Positions 14,492-58,688 of a stretch of 64,000 nucleotides of DNA are shown one piece after another. Within the stretch, counting starts at the first letter, position 1. The number at the start of each line of letters is the position of its first letter. The DNA lies in assembly GCA_027065695.1 (NCBI GenBank), contig JAMONP010000052.1, positions 124,001 to 188,000 on the forward strand. Direction: 5' to 3'. The position numbers and the translations under genes are program-made. Origin of the DNA: Desulfuromonadales bacterium. GTDB taxonomy: Bacteria > Desulfobacterota > Desulfuromonadia > Desulfuromonadales > BM103. The notes under the pieces are model-generated. The model saw only the letters and a list, made by a program, of their open reading frames with translations. It had not been told where the DNA came from and did no database searches.

Positions 14492-14505
14492 AAGCAGGCT
14501 CTCTC

Positions 14506-14666
14506 GGAGCTTGTCCGACAATAAGGGTCGAAGCGAAAACCCGGAAGTTTGAGAACAGATTTTGGCTTGTTTGAGAGTAATAGCCATAGCTATTGGTCGA
14601 AAAGGAGCTGCAATATGGGCCAAACAGCTGGGTTTGCAGCCGATCATGGATTGTCGGACAAGCTCC
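14506..14666 (+). mobile_element. MITE-like/palindromic 161-bp element, copy 1
   Basis: Bounded by GGAGCTTGTCCGACAAT ... ATTGTCGGACAAGCTCC. The halves are imperfect reverse complements around AATAGCCATAGCTATT. About 90% identical by eye to the reverse complement of 18500-18660. Confidence 0.88.
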
Positions 14667-14774
14667 TCGTCGCAATTCGAGGATTCTCGCTTGCACTGTG
14701 TTGTAAAGTCAGCTATAGTCCGCATTCTTCTCTCTCAGAGGGATTATTTTTCCAAGAAAGCGAGGTGATTGCAG

Positions 14775-18499: not shown

Positions 18500-18660
18500 G
18501 GAGCTTGTCCGACAATCCATGATCGGCTGCAAACCCAGTTGTTTGACCCATATTTCAGCCCCTTTTTGACCAATAGCTATGGCTATTACTCTTAAACGTG
18601 CTAGAATCTGTTCTCAAACTTCTGGATTTTTGCTTCGATACTCATTGTCGGACAAGCTCC
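18500..18660 (-). mobile_element. MITE-like/palindromic 161-bp element, copy 2 (inverted relative to copy 1)
   Basis: GGAGCTTGTCCGACAAT...ATTGTCGGACAAGCTCC termini, flanked by CTA/TAG so the palindrome extends to CTAGGAGC...GCTCCTAG. Same length as copy 1. Confidence 0.88.
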
Positions 18661-18774: not shown

Positions 18775-20739
18775 ATGTCTAAGTCTACACCTGAAAAACA
18801 ACCTTTTTTGCTTTTTTGTGGCTGGTTCTTTGCCGGAGCCCTGCTCGCTCTCATTGTAACCTTCCTGGCACGCAACCTTCAGAACCTGCCTACGGATATC
18901 AATCATCTATGGCTGCCAGTTGTGTCAGGGAGCTTGATTGGCATCCTCTTCGGTTGGTCGAACATTCGCCTGCGTAGCATGAATTATCGTTTAAAGAACA
19001 GTGAAAATCGCTTTTTGGAATTCTTCCAGAATACCCCAGCCATGCTGCATTCAATGAATAGTGAGGGATATCTTCTTTACGTCAGCCAATCATGGCTCGA
19101 TACTCTCGGCTACGATCACGGTGAGGTCATCGGCAAGGATTTTTTCAGCTTTGTTGTTGGCGAGAATATTCCGGAAATCCGGACAAAACACTTTCGACAA
19201 CTAAGAGATTCAGGTGAAATCAAGGACATCAACTATCAATTGTGGCTGGCTGACGGTTCAACAATTGATGTATCCATTTCCGAAGTTGCTCGACGTGATT
19301 CTAACGGGCACCTGACCGATAGTCTGGCCGTTCTCAATGACCTGACCGACCACCGCGCCGCCGAAGAACGCATTGAAAGACTGGCATACTACGATACCCT
19401 GACCGGGTTGCCCAACCGGGCCTTGATGAATGATCGTATTCTGCAAGCAGTGGCCCATGCCAGACGTGACAATCGTCAGTTAGGTGTTTTCTTCTTTGAT
19501 CTCGACCGCTTTAAACTGATCAACGATACTCAGGGACATGCAGTCGGTGACCTGGTCCTACGTTCCGTCGCTCAACGCTTGAAGAAATTCATACGCGAAG
19601 GCGACACTTTTGCCCGCCTGGGCGGCGATGAATTCGTGATTGTGCAGGCTGACCCAAACCATGACCCCAACTTTACCACCATGGGACGACGCATCCTGGA
19701 GGCCTTGGCGCAACCTTTTCAGATTGACAACCGTGAATTATTCACCACAGCCAGTATCGGCGTGGCGGTCTACCCTATAGATGGTGAAGAACCACAAGCG
19801 CTGTTAAAAAGTGCCGATACGGCTATGTATGTTGCCAAAAGTCGTGGCCGCAACAATATCCAGTTCTTTTCAGAAGAGATGAATGCAGCCGCCCAGGCCA
19901 AGACGGACCTTGAGAATCGCTTGCGTCAGGCACTGAGCAGCGGAGAGCTGCAGCAGCATTACCAACCTCAGGTCAACCTGGCGACCGGCCACATCACCGG
20001 CGTCGAGGCACTGCTGCGATGGTACGATAGCGACGGCAACCTGATCTCTCCAGGTCGAATCATCAGTGTTGCCGAAGAAAGCAGTCTGGCATTTCATTTG
20101 GATGAGTGGGTTCTAAAAACGGCCTGTGCCCAGGCCCGGGCCTGGCAAGATGCCGGACTACCACCATTCCGCATGTCTGTAAATCTCTCTGGACATCACA
20201 TCCGCCAAACCAATTTTATTGATCAAATTGAATCGATTCTGAAGGAAACAGGGATCCATCCCAATACTCTGGAGATCGAATTGACTGAAAATTCGATCAT
20301 GGGGCATGTCAATGACAGTATCATTGCTTTGACTGATCTCAAGATTCGTGGAATTAATCTTGCGATAGACGATTTCGGCACAGGTTATTCCTCTCTGTTA
20401 TACCTTAAACATTTTCCAATTCATCGGATCAAGATCGCCCACGAATTCATTCGTGACATCATCCACAACCCTGATTACGCTGCTATTACCGAGGCCATTC
20501 TAAGTATGGCTGCCAGCCTGAACCTCTCTGTTACGGCCGTCGGCGTTGAAGATCCAATGCAGTTGGACTTTTTACGCAAACGTGGTTGTCGGGAAGCGCA
20601 AGGGCTGCTCTTTGGCGCAGCCATGAGTGCTGAAGACATGACACACTTCCTCAACAATTCTGACAATTTACTCTTCGGCATAAAAAAGCAAGGTGATCAA
20701 AGTGAGTTAAATTTTGAAGGATCTCAGGAAATCCATTAG
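18775..20739 (+). CDS. Membrane PAS-GGDEF-EAL protein
   Basis: Two N-terminal hydrophobic segments, a PAS region, RLGGDEFVIVQ (intact GG(D/E)EF), VEALLRW (EAL) and DDFGTGYSSLLYL. Confidence 0.95.
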   Translation: MSKSTPEKQPFLLFCGWFFAGALLALIVTFLARNLQNLPTDINHLWLPVVSGSLIGILFGWSNIRLRSMNYRLKNSENRFLEFFQNTPAMLHSMNSEGYLLYVSQSWLDTLGYDHGEVIGKDFFSFVVGENIPEIRTKHFRQLRDSGEIKDINYQLWLADGSTIDVSISEVARRDSNGHLTDSLAVLNDLTDHRAAEERIERLAYYDTLTGLPNRALMNDRILQAVAHARRDNRQLGVFFFDLDRFKLINDTQGHAVGDLVLRSVAQRLKKFIREGDTFARLGGDEFVIVQADPNHDPNFTTMGRRILEALAQPFQIDNRELFTTASIGVAVYPIDGEEPQALLKSADTAMYVAKSRGRNNIQFFSEEMNAAAQAKTDLENRLRQALSSGELQQHYQPQVNLATGHITGVEALLRWYDSDGNLISPGRIISVAEESSLAFHLDEWVLKTACAQARAWQDAGLPPFRMSVNLSGHHIRQTNFIDQIESILKETGIHPNTLEIELTENSIMGHVNDSIIALTDLKIRGINLAIDDFGTGYSSLLYLKHFPIHRIKIAHEFIRDIIHNPDYAAITEAILSMAASLNLSVTAVGVEDPMQLDFLRKRGCREAQGLLFGAAMSAEDMTHFLNNSDNLLFGIKKQGDQSELNFEGSQEIH

Positions 20740-20817
20740 ACTTCTGGACTCTACAGACCAAAACGAAAACACCTTCCCGGCATAACTTCATTTCCACACC
20801 GTTACACACCAGTTCCT

Positions 20818-20966
20818 TGTACATCTTAAAATGTCGCAAAATTGCGATGGGATTTGGCGTGTCAGCAAGGCGTGATTTCAATTCCATAGCCATAGCTATG
20901 CAACTGAAGTCACAACGCAGCTAGCGCGTCAAATAACCAGCAAGATGCGATGTTTTAGGATTTACA
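20818..20966. repeat. 149-bp long imperfect palindromic element
   Basis: Left arm TGTACATCTTAAAATGTCGCAAAATTGCGATGGGATTTGGCGTGTCAGCAAGGCGTGATTTCAATTCCATAGC pairs with the reverse complement of the right arm, TGTAAATCCTAAAACATCGCATCTTGCTGGTTATTTGACGCGCTAGCTGCGTTGTGACTTCAGTTGCATAGC. Confidence 0.82.
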
Positions 20967-21049
20967 TGGTACTAGAGTAATGACAGCGCCGACAAAATAT
21001 ACTAGAGTGACGCTCTCTTAAATTTCATCTGTGGAATGGAGCAATCATC

Positions 21050-46417: not shown

Positions 46418-46494
46418 TGTCATTCTCGAAGGTTTAATCGAGAATCCAGACTTAAAATCCATGGATCCCCGATAGAATCATTAGGGGATGACAG
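46418..46494. repeat. Dispersed palindromic repeat (TGTCATTC...GGGGATGACA), copy A
   Basis: TGTCATTCTCGAAGGTTTAATCGAGAATCCAG...ATGGATCCCCGATAGAATCATTAGGGGATGACAG. Closely matches 58488-58564. Confidence 0.88.
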
Positions 46495-46535
46495 CCGTTT
46501 TTATAAACAACGCAGAGCTTTACTGCGGAGTCAGT

Positions 46536-58487: not shown

Positions 58488-58564
58488 TGGTCATTCCCGA
58501 GGGTGTAATCGGGAATCCAGCCTTTAAATCATGGATCCCCGATAGAATCATTCGGGGATGACAG
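58488..58564. repeat. Dispersed palindromic repeat (TGGTCATTC...GGGGATGACA), copy B
   Basis: TGGTCATTCCCGAGGGTGTAATCGGGAATCCAGCCTTTAAATCATGGATCCCCGATAGAATCATTCGGGGATGACA between dapA and dapB. Confidence 0.88.
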
Positions 58565-58688
58565 ACCGTTTGTAAATAATTCAGATTGTGCCGAATAGTT
58601 ACAAATTTTATGGAGTGTAAATCCGGAAGATTCAAGGTTTGACTCTGTGCTCCTTATCTCTTTTTAAGTTAATTATTGAGGTTAAAAA

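Follow-up and report, generated by a model that had tools for sequence, protein, structure and literature searches.

A 161-bp palindromic element of Desulfuromonadales is very probably a non-autonomous IS630-type MITE with a sister family of the same length and fold

Several families of bacterial repeats bear comparison with the element described here. RUP of Streptococcus pneumoniae, whose partner is IS630-Spn1, is likewise small and gene-less, targets TA and has ends in common with an IS630 element, although it is 107 bp long, differs in sequence and host, and is described without mention of a conserved apex (PMC2229807). Correia/NEMIS elements also have terminal inverted repeats and a terminal TA, and a long hairpin transcript is a feature of theirs for which RNase III processing has been reported; they differ in size, sequence and host. 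ERIC (RU-1) shares the long hairpin, TA duplication, intergenic position and order-scale spread, but has 127 bp of another sequence and is described without mention of an autonomous partner. YPAL, or RU-2, of Yersinia is similarly a palindromic intergenic repeat, of 167–168 bp, yet it lacks a terminal TA, contains internal inverted repeats and makes duplications of 3–26 bp, whereas our element has terminal repeats and TA. Chunjie of Geobacter uraniireducens resembles it as a MITE of a metal-reducing relative, but measures 235 bp (PMC10969869), a comparison drawn by description and not by sequence. IS630-family elements duplicate TA, and IS630 itself favors the TA of CTAG (Tenzen and Ohtsubo 1991, cited in PMC2170065).

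The window, a 64,000-nt stretch of contig JAMONP010000052.1 from a Desulfuromonadales bacterium, carries a member of what we call family A at 20812–20972 on the forward strand, the start being counted from the base that follows the left target dinucleotide. An initial annotation had placed a palindrome here and was right to do so, but its length of 149 bp gives way to 161 bp: aligned with 93 full-length relatives, the element is a full-length imperfect palindrome that ends G...C between TA-type dinucleotides, and the family-A alignment stops sharply in CTAG at either side. On the right, the dinucleotide TA (20973–20974) is followed by G, giving CTAG; on the left, flank statistics suggest that CA (20810–20811), in CCAG where the consensus is C[TA]G, is a decayed TA. 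The element folds at -71 kcal/mol (z = -7.9), its inverted ends begin CTAGTACCNTGTAAC..., and it falls below about 200 bp and is without a transposase gene. Two copies of a second family, B, lie at 14506–14666 (forward strand) and 18500–18660 (reverse strand), so that both families measure exactly 161 bp in the window. We consider it very probable that the reported element is a non-autonomous MITE of IS630 (Tc1/mariner) type, mobilized in trans, and that family B is its sister, alike in length, fold and target. A transposase supplied from elsewhere would recognize the inverted ends (CTAGTACCNTGTAAC... for family A), excise the element and reinsert it in C[TA]G or C[TA]A, where the TA becomes duplicated; family B, its ends having diverged, would presumably be served by a different IS630-type transposase.

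Insertion sites provide the first line of evidence. Across 138 copies, with both families alike, the left flank reads C-TA (C in 84–93%) and the right flank reads TA followed by G (~70%) or A (~24%), a preference for TA in CTAG. Four empty sites in relatives accompany these statistics and point to clean insertion. The copy at 14506 is flanked by TC on both sides (14504–14505 and 14667–14668; CTCG...CTCG), and its empty counterpart in a relative (G002, L127) holds a single CTCG; the copy at 18500, with CTAG at both flanks, corresponds to a single CAAG in another (G008, L129); and at two further copies, L053 (TTAT) and L051 (TTAA), relatives without the insertion have a single target each. Family-B copies display three kinds of matched non-TA flank pairs—TC/TC, CA/CA and TT/TT—and that such dinucleotides match at both flanks indicates a genuine target duplication. 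In addition, the copy at 18500 separates the -35 box from the -10 box of a promoter-like sequence, TTGACA-N17-TAAGAT, which is conserved in relatives and lies upstream of a PAS/GGDEF/EAL gene (18775–20739).

One feature of the flanks calls for a different reading to be weighed, since the left and right preferences are asymmetric in a way that a plain transposon with terminal inverted repeats would not predict. Were this a REP-like element that depends on a single-strand transposase (Y1/RAYT), the right TA would belong to the element and there would be no true duplication; hairpin DNA fits that picture, and the genome does encode a RAYT-like Y1 gene (L167, 907–1341) beside a frameshifted IS701-like gene. 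We nonetheless regard this as very improbable. The TC/TC copy with a single TC in its empty site and the other matched non-TA pairs speak against it, as do the outer base on the right side, which follows the target in empty sites, and the IS630 element with the same ends as family A. Published REPs, moreover, are 21–65 nt with GT[AG]G feet (PMC6006769); where REP/RAYT elements are marked by a hairpin of 20–65 nt, a GTAG or GTGG foot and no target duplication, ours has 161 bp, CTAG and a TA duplication.

The IS630-type reading gains further from an autonomous element with the ends of family A. When 69 transposase-bearing loci were scanned with end profiles, two IS630-family loci carried family-A ends at both termini, L220 (124–1348, in G057) and L221 (in G048), each an element of 1225 bp with CTAG at both ends. 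Like family A, these have a CTAG target and similar ends of ~30 bp; they differ in being autonomous and in the absence of the apex motif. Their transposase is encoded in overlapping frames, one for an HTH part and one for a DDE part; NCBIfam assigns each to IS630 (IS630 match E 7.5e-37), and Pfam shows HTH and DDE_3 domains (DDE_3 E 4e-27). Beyond CTAG, the element ends match family A at a median of 18 of 26 nt (maximum 21), as against mostly 5–10 of 26 for 1374 other CTAG-anchored sites; only four of those sites reach 16–20, and among these at least L177 is the end of an element. Other IS630 elements of the order also lie at CTAG (L223, L224, L228). The L220-type transposase is accordingly a candidate to mobilize family A, probably by cut-and-paste. 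For family B, whose ends are CTAGGAGCCTGTCGGAC, no IS630 partner was found, the IS630-element ends matching it at a median of only 10 of 26. Candidates tried as mobilizers and set aside, none having the ends on both sides, were IS701-like transposases (PF13546), IS5/IS427 transposases (PF13340) and DDE_Tnp_1 (PF01609).

A MITE of IS5/IS427 type, with a YTAR target and duplicated TA, deserves mention because IS711 has the same target and duplication (PMC2266754). However, PF13340 matched just three of 58 relatives, none of them in the genus, and among the DDE_Tnp_1 loci sampled none had the ends on both sides, so that we give this origin hardly any credence. The window's own genome yielded no detectable PF13358 (IS630) or PF13340 (IS5/IS427-type), and the mobilizer is therefore either non-resident or was missed. 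With no IS630 transposase detected there, the copies may be stranded, and stranding without a resident transposase is common for MITEs. Only 10 of 58 relatives contain IS630, yet family A reaches 48 of 147 and spans many of the order's families.

Copies within the genome, gathered by searches and by stretch, include three further full family-A copies found by DNA search and two more divergent members, in L027 and L037, found with a covariance model. Named records in which a family-A motif turns up belong mainly to Desulfuromonadales or to deltaproteobacterial MAGs. At L027 (1424–1757), a family-B and a family-A-type element abut, with the boundary CTAG common to both. Mini derivatives also occur (L140, L129, L144, L177), comprising ~40-bp terminal-hairpin forms and one copy with an internal deletion whose junction shows a 5-bp overlap. 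Partial family-A matches were entertained as parent elements and rejected, being truncated or internally deleted copies or contig ends. Elsewhere in the window, a separate 42-nt direct repeat of palindromic look (46460–46501 and 58530–58571) is 90% identical between its copies.

At the center of the reported element (20886–20899, forward strand) lies the 14-mer ATAGCCATAGCTAT, which forms a 5-bp stem and a 4-nt loop. It is also central in the two family-B copies, at 14580–14593 and 18573–18586, bearing out the claim of an apex common to all three. The genome-wide motif search that had been proposed went the same way: the 3.39-Mb genome contains ATAGCCATAGCTAT 42 times and a reversed control pattern not once, and by profile models 36 of 38 distinct occurrences checked lie in elements of family B and one in the reported element, the remaining one (C52:247494) falling in no element. 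A broader claim, that the loop defines the superfamily, fails across the order, since exact ATAGCCATAGCTAT is present in only ~8 of 93 family-A copies. There, ATAGCCGTAGCTAT is the commonest apex, ATAG-CACCGCTAT is found in eight copies, and a divergent subfamily (L136) has lost the apex altogether. Both families carry ATAGC-NNNN-GCTAT at the same position; the apex is invariant or nearly so in family B, and the loop is variable in family A. The apex is a conserved feature common to both families, not a defining one.

How the two families relate can be judged from more than the apex. The consensus of each spans exactly 167 columns including the CTA/TAG flanks, with the apex at the same column, and the ungapped identity of 68/167, where no other offset tried exceeds 47, makes the earlier description of their arms as unrelated too strong. 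Trained on 26 family-A sequences only, a covariance model finds family-B elements at full length, in the same orientation and with exact or near-exact ends (most matches at E 4e-6 to 0.05), and has no match on transposase control loci; sequence-only profile searches across families return mostly weak, apex-centered matches. Shared length, target and apex position, together with these covariance matches, support a single superfamily; the families also agree in orientation, in fold, in end structure and in a C[TA]R target whose TA is duplicated. The proposal of a superfamily of mainly intergenic hairpin elements with a common apical motif is thereby upheld on length, target, fold and covariance model. 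Might A and B instead have separate origins as MITEs and have arrived at their common length and apex by convergence? Identity outside the apex and CTAG is barely above shuffles (47/145; shuffle mean 36.7, p ~0.03), as convergence would have it, but both have a length of exactly 161 bp, the same apex column and the same asymmetry of flanks, and these, with the cross-family matches in register and orientation, render it improbable. The long-hairpin form alone supplies part of the covariance score, so common descent, with arms diverged rather than unrelated, is likely but not proven.

Pairing within the hairpin has been maintained as the arms changed. In family A, 209 cells combine changes on both sides with intact pairing, where shuffles give 85 at most; in family B the figures are 85 and at most 40, and kinship among copies inflates such counts. 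In a selected alignment, 32 of 54 pairs show compensatory change, spread along the whole arm and not at the ends alone. Two sources of this pattern are conceivable: the hairpin may be under selection, as RNA or as DNA, or imperfect palindromes may be corrected during replication. Any role of the hairpin would most likely be that of a folded 3' terminus of transcripts, or else the hairpin would be a by-product of such correction. That the hairpin itself is selected—transcribed copies forming folded 3' ends of mRNAs or being processed into small RNAs, with the apex as recognition site—is possible, if doubtful. Compensatory pairs all along the arm, the near-invariant family-B apex and neighboring 3' ends at a median of 26 nt (87 copies with enough flank) are consistent with it, yet replication-based correction also yields paired changes, and the bias toward gene ends follows from target and tolerance. 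More speculative still, and rather unlikely, is that a host or transposon factor recognizes the ATAGC-NNNN-GCTAT hairpin as RNA or extruded DNA, in which case the apex and whole-length pairing would be functional, the hairpin being the superfamily's constant part and the ends changing to follow different IS630 transposases.

A simple ORF call places 62 of the same 87 copies between genes, and the neighboring ORF's stop codon falls exactly in the boundary CTAG at 23 of 87 copies, compared with 29 of 351 other CTAG sites. Upstream of the reported element, the GGDEF/EAL gene that stops at 20739 has received separate stop-codon insertions in four relatives (G002, G003, G004, G006). At relatives of this site (L141, L140, L136, L144), the inserted elements are full or ~40-bp mini forms. 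Because the element starts with G, entry into a TAG or TAA stop that follows C or T remakes a TAG stop, and gene ends are thus tolerated.

These elements were put forward as the best candidate in the window for an undescribed system, a billing that does not survive: target, duplication and family-A ends are IS630-type, and two relatives hold an IS630 element with matching ends. Rfam gave nothing above gathering threshold in the window and, at the reported element, no more than sub-threshold matches. They are new families of a known kind, IS630-type MITEs comparable to RUP, Correia and ERIC, and may have been listed earlier, unnamed, among Geobacter/Pelobacter 'multicopy sequences'. What is unusual is how deeply the entire hairpin and its apex are conserved, and how often insertion falls exactly on stop codons, which illustrates a rule for harmless insertion: a G-starting element that targets [TA] can hit a stop codon and restore it. 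As a set of diverged hairpins of the same length, the families offer a natural means of testing pairing by selection against replication-based correction. An abundant repeat of the order, one family of which numbers some 40 copies or more in the present genome, gains a named kind and a candidate mobilizer, and probably belongs to an ancient superfamily spread across one order of sediment bacteria.
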